The position numbers and the translations under genes were made by a program. From positions 1 to 21,188 of IMG/VR virus record IMGVR_UViG_3300022924_000094: 21,188 nt of DNA, one strand, 5' to 3'. Positions within the stretch are counted from its first letter, which is position 1. Each line of letters starts with the position of its first letter. This document shows, in pieces, positions 989 to 19,529 of the stretch. The notes under the pieces were generated by a model. The model was not told the origin of the DNA and made no database searches. It saw only the letters and a program-made list of their open reading frames with translations. Origin of the DNA: a virus.

Positions 989-2905
989 ATGAAGAAATTC
1001 TGGCAAATCCGAAACGAAGTATCGTCTTCGGAGAAAGAGCTTTACATTGAAGGCGTGATTTCTGACGAATCATGGTGGGGCGACGAGGCAACTCCTGCGC
1101 AACTCCGTGAAGAACTTCAGCAATTTAAAGGCCAACCGTTGACAGTAGTTTTGAACTCTGTTGGTGGTGACGTCTTTGCGGGCCTCGCTATGTACAACGC
1201 TCTCCGTGAATTGGATGCAGAAGTTACCATTCGTGTTGACGGCCTCGCCGCTTCAATCGCTTCAGTAATTGCAATGGCTGGTGATCACATCATCATGTCA
1301 CCCGGCTCAATGATGATGGTCCACCGACCTTCAACAATCGCCTGGGGCAATGTGGAAGAGATGCAGAAGACGATCGAGCTGCTTGAGACTATCGAAGAAA
1401 GCATCTTCCCGATCTATGTAGATCGTACAGGTCTTTCTCTCGAAGAAGTAACCGAGCTTGTGAATGCCGAAACTTGGATGTCCGCCGAGAAAGCAGTCGA
1501 ACTAGGGTTCGCTGATACATTGGCCAAGTCAGTCAAGAAAGAGGGATCAGAAGCAGTCCAAAACAAGGGTGCATTTGCATTTAGCATGAAGGCCACCGCT
1601 GAAGCGATCACTACGGCGATCGAGCACTCAGATAAAAAGGTAGTTGCTGAAGCAGAAGAACCTGAGACTCCTGTGGTACCGGAACCAGTAGTAGATCCAA
1701 TTCTACCCGAACCGGAAAAAGCTGAAGATGAGGCCGTGACTGATCCCATCCCCGGTGAAGAAAACAACCCAGTCGAAAAGGAAACAACCGAAATGACCGA
1801 AGCAGAAAAGAAAGCGAAGCTCGAAGCTGAAGCAGCTGCTGCAGCAAACGCAGCACCTGGTACAGAAGGAATTCAAGCAAAGGCTCCTAAGCAAGAATCA
1901 GCTGCACCAACAAGTGGATACCTATCTACTCGTCAATCAATCGAAGACTTCGCAAAAGTCCTTGTTGACAACGCTGGTAAGACAGCACAAGAAGTCAAGG
2001 ACGCCTGGGGCGCTAAACTCGCAACAATGGGTGTCACAAACCCTGAAATCCTTCTACCAAGCGCATTGATCACTGAGATCGAAGACGCTTTCCGTGAAGG
2101 TGGTACAATCTGGAACCTCGTGAACAAAACTGGTCTAACTGTCTTCCGTGCTGCATGGGACTCACAAACTGGTGAACCATCACGTGCGAAGGGTTACAAC
2201 CGCGATGAAGAAGAGGACAAAGCTGAAGAGCTTATCACGATCTCTGACCGTGTTATCCGTGCTCAATTCATCTACAAGTACATTACCCTTAACAAAGAAG
2301 ACATCAAAGAGAACCGCGACACAGGTGCGCTTGTTCGTTACGTACTCTCTGAACTTCCTCGCCGTATTGTTCGTGAAGTTGAACGTGCTATCGTCATTGG
2401 TGATGGCCGTGTTGATGGATCTGACTACAAGATCGACAGCTTCCTCTCATTGAAAGATGACGCAGCTGGTGCTGGTACATTTGCCGTAGAATACACCCCA
2501 GGTGTTGACGAAAGCAAATACGAAACTCTCGTACGTGCCCGTGATCTTGTTAAAGCTGAAGGTGCTAAGTACCTCGTATCTAAGACTGGATTCCTTACAG
2601 ACATCCTTCTTATGCAATCAGTTAACGGTGGATTCGTCTTCGCCCCTGGAACAGATATTGCCCGAGCCCTTGGCTTCGCTGGTAGCATCGAACCAGACTG
2701 GTTTGACGACACAACTGACCCTGAAAACGATGCGTACATCTTTGTTCCAAGCGCTTACACAACTGTTGGTGACAACACAATCGAAGCGTACACAAACTTC
2801 ATCTTGAAGCAGAACAAACAAGAGTACCTCCAAGAAATCTACGCCGGTGGTGCGCTATCTAAGCTTCGTGCTGCAGTAGCAATCGGTGCAGGTTCAGCTA
2901 GCTAA
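989..2905 (+). CDS. ClpP-type prohead protease fused to HK97-fold major capsid protein
   Basis: A 638-residue polypeptide with three parts. Residues about 15-180 form an S14 (ClpP-type) protease domain with the nucleophile Ser89 in GLAASIAS, His112 in MMVHRPS, and the family-typical TWMSA segment after residue 161. Residues about 200-310 are a low-complexity linker, first acidic and proline-rich and then Ala/Lys/Glu-rich, as expected for a scaffold (delta) region removed in maturation. Residues about 311-638 look like an HK97-fold major capsid protein. AAAGG at 976-980 is well placed for the ATG at 989. The protease would process proheads and release the capsid domain. An internal ATG at 1793 with its own ribosome site could produce scaffold plus capsid alone. 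Separate protease and capsid genes are the usual arrangement. Confidence 0.88.
   Translation: MKKFWQIRNEVSSSEKELYIEGVISDESWWGDEATPAQLREELQQFKGQPLTVVLNSVGGDVFAGLAMYNALRELDAEVTIRVDGLAASIASVIAMAGDHIIMSPGSMMMVHRPSTIAWGNVEEMQKTIELLETIEESIFPIYVDRTGLSLEEVTELVNAETWMSAEKAVELGFADTLAKSVKKEGSEAVQNKGAFAFSMKATAEAITTAIEHSDKKVVAEAEEPETPVVPEPVVDPILPEPEKAEDEAVTDPIPGEENNPVEKETTEMTEAEKKAKLEAEAAAAANAAPGTEGIQAKAPKQESAAPTSGYLSTRQSIEDFAKVLVDNAGKTAQEVKDAWGAKLATMGVTNPEILLPSALITEIEDAFREGGTIWNLVNKTGLTVFRAAWDSQTGEPSRAKGYNRDEEEDKAEELITISDRVIRAQFIYKYITLNKEDIKENRDTGALVRYVLSELPRRIVREVERAIVIGDGRVDGSDYKIDSFLSLKDDAAGAGTFAVEYTPGVDESKYETLVRARDLVKAEGAKYLVSKTGFLTDILLMQSVNGGFVFAPGTDIARALGFAGSIEPDWFDDTTDPENDAYIFVPSAYTTVGDNTIEAYTNFILKQNKQEYLQEIYAGGALSKLRAAVAIGAGSAS
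1776..1795 (+). promoter_or_regulatory. Internal ribosome binding site and in-frame start for scaffold-capsid
   Basis: AAAAGGA at 1776-1782 lies 10 bases before an in-frame ATG at 1793, codon 269 of the fusion. Starting here gives a 370-residue product with the end of the linker and the whole capsid domain but no protease. This parallels lambda C/Nu3, where an in-frame internal start makes scaffold without protease. It would solve the stoichiometry problem of a protease-capsid fusion. Use of this start is inferred. Confidence 0.5.
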
Positions 2906-2936
2906 CAATTAACAGATTAAGAAAGGGGACAAACGA

Positions 2937-3560
2937 ATGATTGACGCAGCACAGCTCGCTAAGTTACTAGGGCGTCCCCTTACCTCTGTTGAAACAGCTA
3001 ACGAAGAATTGTACCTTGACATTGCATACGAACGACTAGAGTCGATGATATGTAGCACAGTGGATTCAATCGCTGAAGAGCGAACGTACGACGGCCGTGA
3101 TGGCTATAGTACGGTATTCACTGATGTCTTTGTTGAAGTATCGAGTGTCACAGTAAACGGGAAACTCCTGGACGCTGCTGACTACTCGATACGACAATGG
3201 GATAAAAGAAATGCTGCATGGTTTAACTCTATCGTTCTGAAGAACAAACTTTGCGGAAACAGTGAAGTAGTGATCGACGCCACATGGGGATTCGCTGATG
3301 ATACTATGCCAGGCGACCTTCAGCTACTTGTTGCCCAACTATTTGCCCTCGTCGGTAAGATGAACAAGGGGAACGGCAACGTCAAGTCGAAGAAGGTGGA
3401 GGATTTCTCTATCTCTTACAACGACAACTCTGTATACAATCAGTTCGTTATCGACAACGCCGCAACAATCCGCCGCTACTCATTATGTGATATCGGTAAG
3501 GTGAGAAACGGTAAAGTTCGTAGTGACTTTTGGCGCTTAGAACGATACTGGAGTCGATAA
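2937..3560 (+). CDS. Head-tail connector adaptor protein (gp6/gp15-like)
   Basis: This 207-residue protein directly follows the capsid gene. GAAAGGGG precedes the ATG at the usual distance. The N-terminal part is helical with an acidic LYLDIAYERLESMI-type segment. A beta-rich middle (VEVSSVTVNGKLLDAADYSI) and a DATWGF segment follow, then a helix at DLQLLVAQLFALVGK. This order (helices, strand region with a W-G-F/Y motif, then a helix) is typical of phage head-tail adaptors that dock under the portal. The assignment rests on position and overall pattern rather than a diagnostic motif. Confidence 0.65.
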   Translation: MIDAAQLAKLLGRPLTSVETANEELYLDIAYERLESMICSTVDSIAEERTYDGRDGYSTVFTDVFVEVSSVTVNGKLLDAADYSIRQWDKRNAAWFNSIVLKNKLCGNSEVVIDATWGFADDTMPGDLQLLVAQLFALVGKMNKGNGNVKSKKVEDFSISYNDNSVYNQFVIDNAATIRRYSLCDIGKVRNGKVRSDFWRLERYWSR

Positions 3561-3958
3561 TGGATGTCTTTGATGTGTTTCAGGAGACGGGTTATACCTT
3601 CCTGCAACTTAACGAAGGCGGTATCTTAGGGAATACGGTTGAGGCCACAACGGACACAACTGGAATCTTTAAGGAACGTGATGGTATGATCCAGACCAAT
3701 AACATGGAAACGAGACAGAGTGACGCGACACTGCATATACACCCGGACGAGCCCTTTATCGCTACCGTGCAAGCGTTAAGCGATAAGAACGAGTTTCTCG
3801 TAGGGCATGGCATCAGGGCCACTAAGAACGGCTCTAAAGCTGACTATCGGATCATCGGACAGGTTGAGGGATTCAATTTCGATACGAACGTACTGGAATT
3901 CTATCGCTTGACGCTAAAGGCCGAAGATTTGGCGGTGAGTGATGGCAGTTCGAGCTAA
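3560..3958 (+). CDS. Probable head-closure (stopper) protein
   Basis: A 132-residue protein whose ATG overlaps the TAA of the adaptor gene. An upstream in-frame codon at 3530 lies inside that gene and lacks a ribosome site. The sequence is predicted mostly beta (for example YRIIGQVEGFNFDTNVLEFYRLTLKAE), contains an HIHPDEPF segment, and is small and acidic. In the usual siphovirus order, the second gene after the capsid encodes the stopper or closure ring between adaptor and tail. I see no diagnostic motif, so this is a positional call. Confidence 0.5.
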   Translation: MDVFDVFQETGYTFLQLNEGGILGNTVEATTDTTGIFKERDGMIQTNNMETRQSDATLHIHPDEPFIATVQALSDKNEFLVGHGIRATKNGSKADYRIIGQVEGFNFDTNVLEFYRLTLKAEDLAVSDGSSS

Positions 3959-4301
3959 GTTCACATCAAGGTTATCGTCATCATGGTTGTCAAAAACCAC
4001 GAGAAACGCTGACAACGTAGCCCTTCAAATGGCGACGGATGTGGACCGATTCGCAAAGGTGCTCGCACCGAAAGACAAAGGACACCTCGTGAACAGTGGG
4101 AGGATCGAGAAGATCGCCCAGGCTGCATTCGTTGTATCCTTTGGTGGATCGAGCGGTGGTGTATCCGTAAAGTATGCAAAACGAAGACACTACGAGAACA
4201 AGAAAAACCCACACACTCTGAAATATTTGGAGCGTGCAGGTAAAGCGGTCTCGAAGCAAAAGATTAAGTACGTTAACGGCGAAAGGCCTAAGTTCAAATG
4301 A
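3942..4301 (+). CDS. HK97 gp10-like neck / tail-completion protein
   Basis: A 119-residue basic protein. The ATG at 3942 follows GGCGGTGAG, which serves as ribosome site inside the end of the upstream gene; an adjacent in-frame GTG at 3939 would overlap that site. Features typical of the HK97 gp10-like family are present: APKDKGHLVNSGRI (the usual 'TGxLRxS' position), then a glycine-rich strand, VKYAKRRHYENKKNP (the 'YAxxxExG' position), and a final helix. Its place between stopper and tail terminator fits. The protein probably helps join or complete head and tail. Confidence 0.65.
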   Translation: MAVRAKFTSRLSSSWLSKTTRNADNVALQMATDVDRFAKVLAPKDKGHLVNSGRIEKIAQAAFVVSFGGSSGGVSVKYAKRRHYENKKNPHTLKYLERAGKAVSKQKIKYVNGERPKFK

Positions 4302-4723
4302 TCACATTACACATCTTAAAGCTCCTAGAAGACAATGGATTCGGTACACTTTCCCTCACCGGCAAAGAGTCCGGCGAAAATCTATTGTGGTTTGAGAAGC
4401 TCCCTCTGGGGAAGGATGGCGTATACATCATGAGCCGAGGTGATGCGATGACACGAGGACAGATGACTACACAGGCATTTGACCTCTACGCTCGCGGATC
4501 CAACGATCTGGACGGCGCTAAACGCTTGGAAGCGATACTCGAATTCTTTGCCAAAGAATGCTATCCCGTATGTGATCTTCCACTGGTACGTAAGTATTCC
4601 GAAACAGTGTACAAAAATTCAATTATCGTCCCTACATTCAATATCAGTAACGTAGGGGTGGACTCTGCGGATAGAGTGATCTATCTGGCAAGCGCCCAAG
4701 TAATTTATAAAAAGGAGCAATAA
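4298..4723 (+). CDS. Probable tail terminator protein
   Basis: A 141-residue protein whose start overlaps the stop of the upstream gene (ATGA). It begins with a helix (ITLHILKLLEDNGFG), then strand segments (LLWFEKLPLGKDGVYIMSRG), a helix containing LDGAKRLEAILEFFAKECY, and ends in strands. This alpha/beta arrangement is that of siphovirus tail-terminator (minor capsid-type) proteins, which cap the tube at the head-proximal end. The gene lies directly before the tube gene, the usual position. Confidence 0.6.
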   Translation: MITLHILKLLEDNGFGTLSLTGKESGENLLWFEKLPLGKDGVYIMSRGDAMTRGQMTTQAFDLYARGSNDLDGAKRLEAILEFFAKECYPVCDLPLVRKYSETVYKNSIIVPTFNISNVGVDSADRVIYLASAQVIYKKEQ

Positions 4724-6067: not shown

Positions 6068-8298
6068 ACGGAAACGAAGAAGTCGGAAAGATTAGTTATT
6101 CTGTCGTCATCGACGTGTCGGCCCTTAAAGCTGGTACAAAGTCGGCTGAACAGGCTATCAAGACTTCATTCGGTAACTCTGAAAAAGCTATCAACAATGC
6201 GACGAGCAATATCGACCGATCACTTGCGAGTACGATCACTCAACTCGGTCTTTTGACAGTATCTCTAGTCGCACTCAGGAAGGTAGGAAACTTCCTGGGT
6301 GATTCTATAGACTCTGCCAATAAATTCCAGTCAGCAATGCTGGGACTCGACTCAGTGGCCACAGCCTTCACAGGTGAATCAGACAAGGCACTGGACGCCG
6401 CTAAACAACTATCCGAAGACGGACTCCTTCCACTCGCAGATGCCGCGACAGGACTAAAGAACCTTCTCGCCGCCGGATATGGTCTCGAAGAAGCAACACT
6501 CCTAATGAACAGGTTCAAAGACTCTGCGGCATTCGGCCGTCAGAACTCTCTATCATTCGGTGAAGCCGTACGATCTGCGACAGAAGGTGTGAAGAACGGA
6601 AACTCAATCCTGGTTGATAACGCTGGTGTTACAAAGAACCTATCGGTGATACTTGAAGAAGCAGGATACAGCGCTCAAGACCTTATGAAGGCCTCTACTG
6701 ATGTTGGTGTTCGAATGGCTATCCTAAACGGTATCGTGCGCGAGACTAACGCTCAGGTAGGCGACGCGGCAAAATTGACCAACACAGCCGCCGGTGCAGA
6801 TGCGCAGTTCGAATATGCAACAAATCAACTACAGGTCCGTCTTGGTGATCTATCGAACATGCTCCGTAAAGATCTCGTCGGAAGCCTGGCCGGATTCATT
6901 AGTACGAACCAGGATGCAATCCTTTCAGTTGGATCAGGTGTCGTCGCCTTCGGTACGGTCATCACAGTCGTTCCGCTGGTTGTACGTGGTATCCGAACCA
7001 TTATCACGACATTGAAGGCACTGACGGTCGCTCAGGCGGTCGCCACAGGTGGTCTTTCTTTGCTCGCGACAGCACTTGGTGTTGCCGCTGGATTCGCCGT
7101 GAACTCTTTATTCGATGGAATGACTGGCACTGCTGAAGAAACTGCTGACGCTGCAGACTCTGCAGGCAAGATGCAAAAGTCCATTGGTGGATCAAGTGAC
7201 GAAGCAAAAGACCTCGCCAAGCAACTCAAGAAGATCGACGATCAGATGCAGGATGCCCGTGATAACTTCCGCGAGCAACTTGCCGAACTAGTTAAAGACA
7301 AGAATGAAAGTATTGCACAGCTCACACAGCGCCTTGCCGACGAAGAGCGTGCATACCAGAAGTCATATGCAACTCGTACTAACGACTTTGAATCAACGAA
7401 CCTCAGAGAAACTGCAGAACACCAGAAGAAGACGAAGGCACTCCAGAACCAGATTGACTTCCTCACAAAGTACAATAAGTCATCCAATGCTCAGCAGCTC
7501 GCAGAGTTGCAGTTTGCCTTGGCAAAAGAGAATGCTGCATATGCAAAGCAGACGGAACTCCGTCAATCTGAGTTCGATACTCAGACCTCATTCGAAGCCC
7601 AGGAATATGAACAGCGCCGCGCGGAGAACGAAAAGAAGCTCAACGAAGAGCTTGCACTGCTTGAAAAGCACCGAGATGACGTACTCGCGATTCGTGATGT
7701 TATCCTGCTTGATGAGATAGAGAAGCTAAAACGTAGTCGTGACGAGCAGCTCAAGTCCCTCGAACAGCAACGCCTCGACGCTATTGAGAAGGGTACACAG
7801 ACAGGACAAGGTTATGCAGACGCTTACAACGCCGCGGCTGCTCCGGTATTATTCAACCTTACTACAGCACAACAGGATGCCGTTGCCAAGAATTTCCGAA
7901 AGACAGTCCTCCCATTCCTTGAAGCCGGACTCCAGGCTGGTGTGCTTGGTAAGACTGACGAATACAGACGAGCTGAGGCGCTGATCTCTGGTCGTGGATA
8001 TGCAACGGGTGGATTCACAGGCCAGGGTGGCGTTAACGAGACAGCTGGTGTCGTTCACAAGGGAGAATACGTTCTTCCGCAGTCAATGGTCAACCAGGCG
8101 ACAGGACTTCCAAAGCCTGAAGCAATCAATACCCTCGGCGGTGGAGGTGGTGGACAAACTGTGGAAATCCACAACCATATCTCAGGGGTGATCGTGTCTT
8201 CACCACAAGACGAGCGACGACTTGCTGAGATCGTTACCAAACGTCAAGAAGAGTCATTACAACAAAGAGGATTCATGAAACCAGTGGGGGCTGCATAA
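6064..8298 (+). CDS. Tail tape measure protein
   Basis: A 744-residue protein, the longest in the tail module, starting in an ATGA overlap. The N-terminal 250 residues are helical and alanine-rich. Residues about 287-346 are a hydrophobic stretch of up to two or three membrane-spanning segments. Residues about 377-575 are a long charged coiled coil rich in Glu, Lys and Gln. Near residues 640-680 comes the ATGGFTGQGG...GVVHKGEYVLP motif, common near the C-termini of tape measures. The protein sets tail length and may form a channel at the cell membrane during DNA entry. From family knowledge of about 1.5 angstrom per residue, tail length would be on the order of 110 nm. Confidence 0.88.
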   Translation: MNGNEEVGKISYSVVIDVSALKAGTKSAEQAIKTSFGNSEKAINNATSNIDRSLASTITQLGLLTVSLVALRKVGNFLGDSIDSANKFQSAMLGLDSVATAFTGESDKALDAAKQLSEDGLLPLADAATGLKNLLAAGYGLEEATLLMNRFKDSAAFGRQNSLSFGEAVRSATEGVKNGNSILVDNAGVTKNLSVILEEAGYSAQDLMKASTDVGVRMAILNGIVRETNAQVGDAAKLTNTAAGADAQFEYATNQLQVRLGDLSNMLRKDLVGSLAGFISTNQDAILSVGSGVVAFGTVITVVPLVVRGIRTIITTLKALTVAQAVATGGLSLLATALGVAAGFAVNSLFDGMTGTAEETADAADSAGKMQKSIGGSSDEAKDLAKQLKKIDDQMQDARDNFREQLAELVKDKNESIAQLTQRLADEERAYQKSYATRTNDFESTNLRETAEHQKKTKALQNQIDFLTKYNKSSNAQQLAELQFALAKENAAYAKQTELRQSEFDTQTSFEAQEYEQRRAENEKKLNEELALLEKHRDDVLAIRDVILLDEIEKLKRSRDEQLKSLEQQRLDAIEKGTQTGQGYADAYNAAAAPVLFNLTTAQQDAVAKNFRKTVLPFLEAGLQAGVLGKTDEYRRAEALISGRGYATGGFTGQGGVNETAGVVHKGEYVLPQSMVNQATGLPKPEAINTLGGGGGGQTVEIHNHISGVIVSSPQDERRLAEIVTKRQEESLQQRGFMKPVGAA

Positions 8299-13102: not shown

Positions 13103-13282
13103 ATGGCACAAGCACCAACACCTGACGAAATAAACACCGCGAGAGAGGTGACTCGCCTAGCCTTCGAAGAGAAACAAGAGGCACAGCTTAAAGAAGGTAA
13201 GGGCTTTGATGTCCCAGCTGACGGCCACGGCGCGGGCGTAATCCCCGAAGCAATCTGGGTAGATCAAAAGGCACAGTCATGA
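13103..13282 (+). CDS. 59-residue soluble protein before the endolysin
   Basis: A strong AAGGAGG ribosome site precedes ATG 13103. The 59 residues are hydrophilic: an N-terminal helix with TAREVTRLAFEEKQEAQLKEG, then a glycine-rich end (DGHGAGVIPEAIWVDQKAQS). The stop overlaps the endolysin start (ATGA), so the two are probably translated together. I do not recognise the family. Confidence 0.6.
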   Translation: MAQAPTPDEINTAREVTRLAFEEKQEAQLKEGKGFDVPADGHGAGVIPEAIWVDQKAQS

Positions 13283-14193
13283 ATGACGGCCAACGACGAT
13301 ATCCAGTAGATTATTTCTTCTTGCACCACTCAACAGGTCCTGACTTTGTAAATGCAGAAGACATCCAGGTTCAAGACTGGTACTCAGACACAGGCAAGGC
13401 CCGTGCATACAGTGGTGGCGCTATCAACCCTATGCACGAACACCCGTCACGCCCAGGGCAGCTGACATATGCACAGGCACACTTCACCCTCCGTGAATAT
13501 AGTAAGGATGGAAATAAATATGGGTGGAGACTTACTGACCTTATAGCGCGGCCATGGCAGAACGTCGCATGGGCAGTCGGTAACTGGGACTATAATGTTA
13601 TGTCTTCAAGTGTGGAGATCTGTGGAAACTACTTGAACAAAAATCTGCCCGACAAGGCATTGATGTGCTTGGCGGATTTCCTTCGAGATATTGATAACGA
13701 ACTGGGCGGTGCGCTGAAGGTATGGCTTCACAAAGAAGTGTACGCGACCGCATGCCCTGCTAGGATCAGCGATCAACGTAATACGCTTATCGACATGATT
13801 AATAATCCCGACAAGTGGAACAACATTCTGTGGCCACCTCAGCCTGTTATAACCATTAAAGAAGAAACTGTATCGGAAATAGTGCCATTTGAGAAAGTGA
13901 ACGTCGAAGATAGCACTGTTCCAAAAGATGAAACAAAGATCACCCAGGTGGGTGTTCAAGGGAATCGTACTGTTGTCTATGTCGTTACGTATACGAATGG
14001 TATTGAAACATCACGCTCGGTTAAAAGTGATACAGTAAGTCCGCAGCCCATAACAGAAATCACCGCAATAGGCACTTATGTGGCGCCTGACAAGCCCCTA
14101 GAGCCTACACCAGGTGAAGATGCAAAGTCATGGATTCAACGTGTCATAGAGGTTATAATTGAGTGGCTAAGTAAGTTCACATATAAGCCGTAG
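13279..14193 (+). CDS. Endolysin: amidase (PGRP/Amidase_2 type) with G5 domain
   Basis: A 304-residue cell-wall hydrolase. Residues about 8-185 form an N-acetylmuramoyl-L-alanine amidase domain with FFLHHST (His16/His17) near the start and HKEVYATACP (His151, Cys159) near the end, matching the zinc ligand pattern of Amidase_2. Residues about 194-266 form a G5 domain (KVNVEDSTVPKDETKI...GIETSRSVKSDTV), a module found in cell-wall and N-acetylglucosamine-binding proteins. After a proline-rich linker the protein ends in an amphipathic helix with repeated Trp and Ile (SWIQRVIEVIIEWLSKF), which could touch membranes. No signal peptide is visible, so export probably depends on a holin. Confidence 0.88.
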   Translation: MNDGQRRYPVDYFFLHHSTGPDFVNAEDIQVQDWYSDTGKARAYSGGAINPMHEHPSRPGQLTYAQAHFTLREYSKDGNKYGWRLTDLIARPWQNVAWAVGNWDYNVMSSSVEICGNYLNKNLPDKALMCLADFLRDIDNELGGALKVWLHKEVYATACPARISDQRNTLIDMINNPDKWNNILWPPQPVITIKEETVSEIVPFEKVNVEDSTVPKDETKITQVGVQGNRTVVYVVTYTNGIETSRSVKSDTVSPQPITEITAIGTYVAPDKPLEPTPGEDAKSWIQRVIEVIIEWLSKFTYKP

Positions 14194-16858: not shown

Positions 16859-17533
16859 ATGGCAATAAAAACAGAGGAGGACGCTAAAGCTGCGTCTGCA
16901 CAGAAGAAAATAAGTATCTATAAGGATGTAGTGCCACTCACAGTCGGTATGCTTTCTGATAATACCAAGGCAAGTAAAGAGAAAATGATCGCAACGATTC
17001 ACAAGTCGATTCTTGGTCTCAACAAACAAGGACAACTTCGACCGATCAGTGACTTGAAGCTATTTATGGCACAGGCGAGTCAGTACGGTCTCAACCCTTT
17101 TAAGAAAGAAATATACGCCACTTATATGTGGGACCGAGAGAAGGGTGAAATTCTTACTCCTATCGTTTCTATTCATGGGCTTCGTAAGCTTGCCCGCCAA
17201 GGTGGAACATACACGCACACCGGCGCCGCTGATGTTGTGATGAGTGAAGATGGCAAGACTATTATCAGTGCAACCGTTCCAGTCTACGGACAATACGACA
17301 AGAGTACTCCTCCTGTTGAAGTCACACGATACACTGCTATGTTTGATGAGTTTGCCAAAACAAATAAGGAAGGCAACCTCACGAGCACATGGGCAAAGAT
17401 GCCGCGCGTGATGATTATTAAATGTGCCGAGGCGAACGCTATTCGTCAGGGCTTTGATATCTCTGGTATTTACATAGAAGAAGAGATCGCACGAACAAAC
17501 GTTATCGAAGGCGAAGAGGTGACAAGTGAATAG
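16859..17533 (+). CDS. recT: RecT/Bet-family single-strand annealing protein
   Basis: A 224-residue protein that would coat resected DNA ends and anneal complementary strands. The ATG at 16859 is chosen because AAAGGA ends 9 bases upstream; an in-frame ATG at 16850 touches that site. Family features: SDLKLFMAQASQYGLNPFKKEIYATYMWD near residues 65-93 (the conserved 'A...GLNP...EIYA' region in overview), IVSIHGLRKLARQGG, then a strand region, and KMPRVMIIKCAEANAIRQGF near the C-terminus (the 'A..KaeA.AlR..FP' region). It begins the early operon and overlaps the nuclease-motor gene by 8 bases, so the two are probably made together as annealase and resection enzyme. Confidence 0.88.
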   Translation: MAIKTEEDAKAASAQKKISIYKDVVPLTVGMLSDNTKASKEKMIATIHKSILGLNKQGQLRPISDLKLFMAQASQYGLNPFKKEIYATYMWDREKGEILTPIVSIHGLRKLARQGGTYTHTGAADVVMSEDGKTIISATVPVYGQYDKSTPPVEVTRYTAMFDEFAKTNKEGNLTSTWAKMPRVMIIKCAEANAIRQGFDISGIYIEEEIARTNVIEGEEVTSE

Positions 17534-19529
17534 GGTTGATCATTTAAGCTATTCAGCTATCGTCACATTCCTTCGCAACCAAGTAGAGTTCCAAAAAAGG
17601 TACATCGCCCGGGTCTACGATAACTCTAAATCACCGTCTCTCATCGTCGGTACGGCATTTCACAAGGCGATGGAGGTATTTTACCAACCTGGATCAGCAC
17701 AGAGCATCCAGGAGGCTGTTGAGGCTGGTATTGCTGAGATCAACAACGTCAGCGACTTTGAGATCGACTACGGCAAGACAGGAAACCGTGAGAAGATGTT
17801 GAAAGAATATACCTCACTGGTAAACAAATACTTTGAAGAGGCGTTACAGTACGATGTAGTCGACACAGAGAAGCGCATGGAGCACTCGATCAACACAGTT
17901 CCTATGGTTGGAATTATTGACCTCGTGACTCGTGGCGAAACCGGTATGCTTCGACTCAAGGACTGGAAGACTGTTGCCTTCTATTCTTCACCAACAAACG
18001 ATCCAATGGATCCTGAGTTCGTTGAGAATTACAAATATCTGCTTCAAGGTTATATCTACCTGGCCCTCGCAGAAGCAGAATACGGTGAGAAGGTTGAGTC
18101 AGTTGAGTTTATCGAGGTAAAGAAGTCTCTGAACCGCGACGGAACACCACAGACGCGTGGATTTGAATACGATCGTCAATCATTACTAGAGTTTGCTGCG
18201 ATCGCTCACAAGATCATCACGAACGTCTTCTCTTATGTCAACGATGATAATGCCAAGTTCTTCCCGAACCCAAGCGACTACATCAACGGCATGGAATCAA
18301 TGCAGATCGTTTCGAATATGGAAGAAGGATTCGACGAGAGCAAGATTCGCCGCAAGATAAATACTGTGGATAAGTTTGCTCCCAGGAACGTCACGATTGA
18401 TGTCGGTGAAGACACCGGTACGAACGAAGAGATGATCATCAAGAAGTTTATCGAGTTCGGTATTGGTGGAGTGATCGGCAATACTTACGAGGGTGCATCG
18501 GTAATTCGATACACATTCAAGCCTAACCGAGGTGTGTCAATGAGCTCTATTGCCAAGCGTGGTGATGACTTGTCTATCGCTTTGAAGGCGAGATCAGTTC
18601 GTATCGAAGCGCCAATCGCTGGTACTGACTTAATTGGTGTCGAGATCCCGAACCCAGAGCGCCGCATTATCAACCTTGAAGATAAGCACCTGAAACCGGG
18701 AACGACTTTGATTCCGATAGGTGAAGATATTTTCGGTGAAGTTCACTACGGTGACGTGACGAAGATGCCTCACCTCTTGATCGCCGGACAGACTGGATCT
18801 GGTAAGTCGGTTATGTTGAACGTGATTCTTTACAGCCTGACGAACCAACTGAAAGCTTCAGAGCTACAGCTGGTCCTGATCGACCCTAAACAGGTGGAGC
18901 TTGCGTCTTACGAAGGATTGCCGCACTTGATGCGTCCGATCATCACAGAGCCTTTAGAAGCGGTCCAGGCACTCGATGACTTAGTGAAGTTGATGGAGAA
19001 GCGATATACAATCCTGCGCAAGGCTGGTGTCCGTTCGATTGACGATTATAAAGGCAAGATGCCACGAGTGATCGCAGTTGTCGACGAGTTCGCCGACCTG
19101 ATGATGACCGACATGTCTCCAAGCGTTGAGTCGATGGACTACAAGGTGCTGACTGAGAATCTAAGAAATGCACTCTACCAAAGTTCAACCGGTAACGTCA
19201 CACAGGCAATGCTGCGCAGTGCGATTGGTGCGACCGTTAAAAGTACAGCTCCACCAAGCGCCGAGGATTCGATCATTCGTATCAGTCAGAAGGCTCGGGC
19301 AGTTGGTATCCACCTGATCCTCGCAACGCAGCGACCAAGTGCTGATGTAGTTACCGGCCTGATCAAGGCGAACGTGCCAACGAAGATTGCATTCGCCGTA
19401 ACTACGGCAACAAATAGCCGTATCATCCTTGACGAGAGCGGCGCTGAGAAGCTTACGGGCTACGGCGACATGCTTTATCAGGATCCGAGTACACGATCAT
19501 CAGAACGGCTCCAGGGCTTTTATAAATAG
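17526..19529 (+). CDS. RecB/Cas4-type PD-(D/E)XK nuclease fused to FtsK-type DNA translocase motor
   Basis: A 667-residue fusion starting at GTG 17526 (GAGGTG ribosome site). Residues 1 to about 240 are a PD-(D/E)XK nuclease of the RecB/Cas4 kind: LSYSAIVTFLR opening, His46 in GTAFHKAME, Asp132 in GIIDLV, Asp146-Trp-Lys148, and Gln174...Tyr178 (the QxxxY motif). Residues about 300-380 match the FtsK beta domain (VRIEAPIAGTDLIGVEIPN). Residues about 395-667 are the RecA-like motor: Walker A GQTGSGKS (421-428), Walker B VIAVVDEFADL (Asp520, Glu521), LILATQRPS. It lacks the FtsK membrane anchor and the DNA-reading gamma domain. About 55 extra residues (roughly 528-582) lie between Walker B and the QKARAVGIH segment. 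The likely role is to move along and degrade DNA, feeding RecT. No gene split, stop or frameshift is seen at the junction. Confidence 0.9.
   Translation: MNRVDHLSYSAIVTFLRNQVEFQKRYIARVYDNSKSPSLIVGTAFHKAMEVFYQPGSAQSIQEAVEAGIAEINNVSDFEIDYGKTGNREKMLKEYTSLVNKYFEEALQYDVVDTEKRMEHSINTVPMVGIIDLVTRGETGMLRLKDWKTVAFYSSPTNDPMDPEFVENYKYLLQGYIYLALAEAEYGEKVESVEFIEVKKSLNRDGTPQTRGFEYDRQSLLEFAAIAHKIITNVFSYVNDDNAKFFPNPSDYINGMESMQIVSNMEEGFDESKIRRKINTVDKFAPRNVTIDVGEDTGTNEEMIIKKFIEFGIGGVIGNTYEGASVIRYTFKPNRGVSMSSIAKRGDDLSIALKARSVRIEAPIAGTDLIGVEIPNPERRIINLEDKHLKPGTTLIPIGEDIFGEVHYGDVTKMPHLLIAGQTGSGKSVMLNVILYSLTNQLKASELQLVLIDPKQVELASYEGLPHLMRPIITEPLEAVQALDDLVKLMEKRYTILRKAGVRSIDDYKGKMPRVIAVVDEFADLMMTDMSPSVESMDYKVLTENLRNALYQSSTGNVTQAMLRSAIGATVKSTAPPSAEDSIIRISQKARAVGIHLILATQRPSADVVTGLIKANVPTKIAFAVTTATNSRIILDESGAEKLTGYGDMLYQDPSTRSSERLQGFYK

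Follow-up and report, generated by a model that had tools for sequence, protein, structure and literature searches.

What does a phage do with a nuclease and a DNA motor that are joined in one chain and encoded next to a recT gene? The question is raised by virus record IMGVR_UViG_3300022924_000094 of IMG/VR, a stretch of 21,188 bp (the window) that carries head, tail, and lysis genes, as judged from Pfam and PHROG matches, together with a gene that, as a preliminary description of the sequence had recognized, encodes a RecB-type nuclease and an FtsK-type motor in one uninterrupted frame (Table 1). We consider it likely that this fusion is a single-chain, ATP-driven DNA-end-processing nuclease acting as the exonuclease partner of a phage RecT/Redbeta-type protein. 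The direct basis for this resection reading is an intact fusion, the catalytic residues of both of its halves, its pairing with RecT, and a search that detected no second candidate exonuclease.

The fusion is not confined to the window. Counting each protein once, we collected 29 fusion proteins from many metagenomes and two genome assemblies, with ~26-73% pairwise identity and nearly all on independent phage contigs. A scan of viral contigs with the window protein alone returned two relatives (70-73% identity), both with the same fusion and recT, and the rest of the family was reached in viral contigs with a profile built from six fusions. Among bacterial and archaeal assemblies, the scan returned L015 (64%), with secA and other host genes around it in a 0.7-Mb genome, and L016 (36%), on a 35,898-bp contig of a Fermentibacteria assembly; since viral record L109 has the same length and gives the same protein, the contig of L016 probably belongs to a phage and was assigned to the Fermentibacteria genome in binning. 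A sampled search of the class of L015 yielded L019, whose contig bears ligA as well as terminase and portal genes after the fusion, and which is therefore a prophage; L015 and L019 are located in bacterial genomes of 0.7-1 Mb, a size that would make Patescibacteria candidate hosts of the window's phage. Three different queries at 80% coverage found no fusion in 50,697 phage records, none was found in 72,556 plasmids, and a nearest-neighbour scan with L019 returned nothing. In a viral structure library, A0A8S5RDL0 (400 aa), whose annotation goes no further than PD-(D/E)XK nuclease, is 28% identical over ~400 columns and is possibly an incomplete member of the family. Many weak nuclease matches of ~940-1120 aa in small-genome bacteria were taken to be other host proteins of the RecB family and not counted. 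One locus, L076, is split across its record ends, with the missing nuclease part at the opposite end. No stop codon falls at the junction in any of the loci, which excludes a frameshift there, and the 28 further fusions rule out both an assembly artefact and a fusion unique to this assembly.

The three Pfam matches of the window protein, PDDEXK_1, FtsK_alpha, and FtsK_SpoIIIE, all exceed the curated cut-offs, and in a scan of 27 fusions both FtsK domains were matched in every protein and PDDEXK_1 in 26. The nuclease core residues H46, D132, D146, K148, and Q174 are shared by all 28 fusions with a full nuclease alignment, L076 being left out because its nuclease is cut by the contig end. The preliminary description had placed these landmarks, and Y178, correctly; Y178 of the QxxxY motif is not conserved, however, and was dropped as a landmark of the family. 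Its label of RecB/Cas4-type holds for the RecB-type PD-(D/E)XK part only: cysteines are absent from the window's nuclease half, and each of the other fusions has 0-3 among its first 300 residues, so the four-cysteine site is missing and a Cas4/AddB-type iron-sulfur nuclease is ruled out. On the motor side, sensor Q602 is invariant in all 29 fusions, like the Walker and arginine-finger residues listed in Table 1. Judged from these conserved residues, both halves are probably catalytically competent.

The motor had been described as an FtsK beta domain followed by a RecA-like motor. An FtsK motor it is, but one composed of alpha and beta subdomains; the KOPS-reading FtsK_gamma domain had no Pfam match among the 27 fusions, and the window chain stops with the beta domain. 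Like cellular FtsK/SpoIIIE proteins (P. aeruginosa structures 2iut and 6t8b), the fusion has an alpha-beta motor with arginine finger and DNA contacts of loop II, the FtsK residues R632 and K643 being kept in 27/29 and 28/29 fusions. It differs from them in lacking gamma, in carrying a nuclease in place of the N-terminal membrane domain, in its loop I, and in falling into a separate clade. A canonical FtsK with KOPS reading is thus ruled out, and from its sequence we class the motor as FtsK-type, not canonical FtsK. An AlphaFold2 single-chain model built from 27 sequences reached a mean predicted local distance difference test score (pLDDT) of 84.7, replacing a 5-sequence model with a pLDDT of 64. 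Nuclease and motor are modelled with confidence and residues 266-296 are disordered; the predicted template modelling score is 0.53, so that the relative placement of the halves is not fixed by the model. The motor model superimposes on the P. aeruginosa FtsK motor 2iut (Z 40.6, rmsd 1.7, 324 residues, 44% identity), and the nuclease model (residues 1-289) aligns with the putative exonuclease 3l0a (Z 16.1, rmsd 6.1, 226 residues), while a PDB sequence search with the nuclease profile gave no meaningful match. Median pairwise identity is 0.43 for the motor, 0.30 for the nuclease, and 0.17 for the linker (250-297). Between Walker B and the arginine-finger helix (window residues 525-588) lies an insertion that varies from 17 to 98 residues across the fusions, a possible site for partner contacts.

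The adjacency of recT and the fusion, already noted for the window, extends to the whole family. All 28 loci with upstream sequence have a RecT-like gene there, in the same orientation as the fusion, and reading L076 across its record ends places one ~0.9 kb upstream there too, making 29/29. In 22 of these loci, the recT-like gene ends at most ~130 bp from the fusion start or overlaps it; the distance is 0.35-2.1 kb in L073, L074, L076, L079, L080, L081, and L120. The annealing proteins match Pfam RecT in 26 of 28 scanned; that of L019 has a RecT-like PHROG match, and that of L120 is tied to the family by its similarity to those of L019 and L075. When the neighbours were clustered, the annealing proteins of 25 loci fell together and those of 3 formed a second cluster, and no other real gene family reached more than 8 loci; two larger clusters were discounted as antisense frames of the fusion and recT. 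By contrast, loci of unfused phage FtsKs had a RecT-like gene in 0/44 cases (Fisher P ~1e-20 versus the fusions), in a control that consists largely of big phages and is unmatched. The annealing protein itself is exchangeable: the fusions of L075 and L074 are 59% identical, yet their annealing proteins are without any similarity, and those of L105 and L089, whose fusions are also 59% identical, share a weak partial match only. The association appears to have been re-formed, or kept, through replacement of the annealing protein, and such partner swaps among 59%-identical fusions argue for function rather than shared descent alone.

The fusion also appears to be the only candidate exonuclease of its phages. 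No YqaJ-type (lambda-Exo/RecE-type) exonuclease was found in 25 phage records, and a PDDEXK_1 scan of 26 records including the window gave exactly one match in 22, always the fusion, and four below detection; many of these records may be incomplete, so that absence is weak evidence for each of them.

How might such a protein work? The preliminary description pictured a self-contained hexameric resection machine for RecT, a view that the comparisons support in part. Six chains would assemble into an alpha-beta ring of the FtsK type that encircles the duplex. In the FtsK motor, the duplex enters at the beta ring and leaves at the alpha ring (PMC7321959). In the fusion, the nuclease is joined to alpha on its N-terminal side and would hang by a short flexible linker from the alpha end, the predicted exit. 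DNA coming out of the motor would therefore run into the nucleases, of which one ring would carry as many as six, and the motor would itself supply them with DNA. Digestion biased toward one strand would then expose single strands, which RecT, made from the same message, would coat and anneal, leading to recombination and concatemer formation.

Several observations weigh against this resection reading. Other small genes separate recT and the fusion at seven loci, the unfused-FtsK control has the composition given above, and all evidence comes from metagenomic contigs and assemblies of uncultured phages. The loop I contacts of FtsK are mostly lost (K657 is replaced in most fusions and R661 is R or K in 15/29), so that DNA gripping may differ from that of FtsK; position K657 varies among unfused FtsKs too. 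Above all, the analogy with HerA-NurA, invoked in the preliminary description for end resection, is shakier than was assumed: the Thermococcus complex, the closest worked mechanism, cuts both strands of the duplex, which would leave little for RecT (PMC12977600). Strand bias thus looks like the weak step of the argument, and it is the reason why we call resection likely and keep, as an unlikely alternative, a destructive role.

In that destructive role, the motor would drive the DNA of the host or of a rival into the nucleases, which would destroy both of its strands for nucleotide recycling or the exclusion of competitors, as has been proposed for HerA-NurA and for defence proteins that join a nuclease to HerA/FtsK; RecT would then be protective or incidental. 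Besides Thermococcus HerA-NurA, it has a precedent in DndH, which joins nuclease and HerA/FtsK in one chain and is proposed to destroy invader DNA (PMC10853773), and PADLOC models of SspH match the fusion motor. These matches, however, cover the motor only. A scan of four window and locus proteins showed no known defence component, and the sole widely conserved neighbour at the 29 loci is an annealing protein that is retained through family swaps. Less probable still is an accessory function in replication or packaging, in which the motor would move phage DNA (concatemer resolution, prophage segregation, or terminase feeding) and the nuclease would trim branches or ends, RecT belonging to the same module without being coupled to it. 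Some related motors do stand alone in large phages, but the unfused phage FtsKs show no RecT association and the gamma/KOPS domain is unmatched in every fusion scanned. In addition, a recognizable terminase is present in 10 of 25 phage records, so packaging has its own motor there, and a packaging ATPase is disfavoured. That the gene is an assembly chimera or a recent accident whose halves have no joint function is barely credible: unfused relatives exist for the motor and for the nuclease, but 29 fusions down to ~26% identity share one motor clade, an open junction, and their catalytic residues.

We return to the resection reading to ask how the proposed nuclease compares with known systems. 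Like lambda Exo-Redbeta and RecE-RecT, it belongs to a phage operon that pairs a PD-(D/E)XK-fold enzyme with a RecT/Redbeta-type annealing protein; here, however, the nuclease is of the RecB-type PDDEXK_1 family and fused to an FtsK ring ATPase, whereas phage exonucleases of the lambda Exo/RecE kind, to our knowledge, need no ATP and have no motor. RecBCD and AddAB offer an analogy in motor-driven end processing by a RecB-family nuclease, but they use a superfamily 1 helicase acting on single strands, carry the nuclease C-terminal to the motor, and consist of several subunits. In HerA-NurA of archaea and Deinococcus-Thermus, a ring of the FtsK/HerA superfamily has its nuclease on the side receiving DNA (PMC12977600, PMC9960219), and DNA is driven to NurA, docked on the HAS domain of HerA (PMC12977600). 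Both nucleases would thus sit where the ring feeds DNA, in the fusion by predicted placement. HerA-NurA differs in being two separate proteins in a 6:2 ratio, in its NurA fold and HAS barrel, for neither of which Pfam gave a match among the 27 fusions, and in not being linked to RecT. The defence proteins of the DndH or 'HerA/FtsK capture' kind likewise unite a nuclease with a HerA/FtsK ATPase in a single polypeptide, and an FtsK alpha domain occurs in one of their clades (PMC10853773); DndH is the nearest precedent for the phage fusion. DndH and SspH are, however, large multidomain host proteins with helix-turn-helix or target-recognition and restriction endonuclease domains, and the neighbours of the fusion are RecT and phage genes, not Dnd or Ssp partners.

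Trees of the two halves bear on the origin of the fusion. The motor tree comprises 83 sequences, of which 29 are fused, 48 belong to unfused phage FtsKs, and 6 are cellular; its sampling was guided by the fused family. The fused motors form one side of a 100/99 branch, supporting an ancient and conserved fusion of one origin. In the nuclease tree, whose deep branches are poorly resolved, the stand-alone chromosomal nucleases L042-L044 fall inside the fused family beside L075 (99/91). These are proteins of 275-299 aa (L042:1441-2328, L043:1474-2301, and L044:1477-2376) from small-genome bacteria, with chromosomal neighbours such as a sigma factor and neither motor nor recT within the 13-14 kb read, which suggests later capture of a phage nuclease without its motor, a possible domestication. 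In the clade of the window, L002, L003, and L015, the motor groups with L073/L077 (100/94) and the nuclease sits on a long separate branch; this half may either have evolved faster or have been replaced.

The window features are collected in Table 1. Its RecT also matches the NCBIfam model TIGR01913 bet_lambda ('phage recombination protein Bet') with 78.0 bits, against a cut-off of 76.95. The 8-bp overlap of recT with the fusion recurs in L003 and L015, and is 1 bp in L002; together with the AAGAGG stretch, it makes translational coupling of the two window genes possible. Elsewhere in the window, a 638-aa frame at 989-2905 is a protease-capsid fusion, matching head maturation protease over the first half of its length and head proteins over the rest, and 13279-14193 encodes a lysis protein with an Amidase_2 and a G5 domain. 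Other loci of the family hold further genes close to the fusion: in L003, a GroES-like gene followed by a GroEL gene lies shortly downstream (the pair at 7045-7988), either phage-borne or host flank, and in L083 a 552-aa HerA-like ATPase with a GGGKS Walker A (2768-4426) lies 1.5 kb upstream of the FtsK fusion in the same phage.

Table 1 Features of the recT-fusion locus in the window
Feature	Position	Strand	Evidence
recT / Redbeta-like single-strand annealing protein, 227 aa	16850..17533	+	Pfam RecT E 2.6e-20; PHROG RecT-like and Bet-like
AAGAGG, ribosome-binding-like stretch, 6 nt 5' of the fusion GTG	17514..17519	+	sequence; putative function
recT end/fusion start overlap, 8 bp	17526..17533	+	sequence
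Fusion gene, RecB-type nuclease and FtsK alpha-beta motor, 667 aa, GTG start	17526..19529	+	single uninterrupted frame; Pfam
PD-(D/E)XK nuclease domain, residues 6-228	17541..18209	+	Pfam PDDEXK_1 E 6e-15
Linker, residues 266-296	18321..18413	+	pLDDT <50; poorly conserved
FtsK alpha subdomain, ~residues 298-376	18417..18653	+	Pfam FtsK_alpha (295-376, E 3e-18); 2iut alignment from residue 298
FtsK beta (RecA-like) motor, ~residues 379-667	18660..19526	+	Pfam FtsK_SpoIIIE (386-605, E 8e-48)
Walker A GQTGSGKS, residues 421-428	18786..18809	+	K427 in 29/29 fusions
Walker B acidic pair D520-E521	19083..19088	+	29/29 fusions
R591, aligned with FtsK arginine finger R620	19296..19298	+	29/29 fusions

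The preliminary description knew of no phage system of this architecture, and none of the open-licence papers searched was found to describe a nuclease-FtsK fusion linked to recT, which is not proof of absence. One-chain proteins of nuclease and HerA/FtsK are known, as are exonuclease-annealing pairs; their union in phages, a RecB-type nuclease joined to an FtsK-type motor and consistently paired with RecT, did not turn up in the papers, the phage records (at 80% coverage), or the plasmids searched. The fusion is probably a motor-driven form, so far undescribed, of the tools with which phages prepare DNA ends for recombination. With somewhat more reserve than for the resection role itself, we favour the view that it represents a third architecture of phage end-processing recombinases, beside the lambda-Exo/RecE pairs and the hijacking of host RecBCD: a single-chain FtsK-ring nuclease that would drive duplex DNA into its six nucleases and pass single strands to whatever RecT-family protein its upstream neighbour encodes. 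Such recombinases would be widespread among uncultured phages and extend to prophages in bacteria with very small genomes. Such a system would offer a clean setting in which to ask whether rings of the FtsK/HerA type are able to produce single strands fit for recombination, a point of dispute for HerA-NurA. It could also serve as a compact and processive module of nuclease and annealase for recombineering, even in bacteria for which genetic tools are lacking. The combination of a nuclease with FtsK, so far described in defence proteins, is now placed on the phage side. If this conserved, motor-driven version is indeed what it appears to be, phages have evolved their own one-gene counterpart of RecBCD and HerA-NurA.
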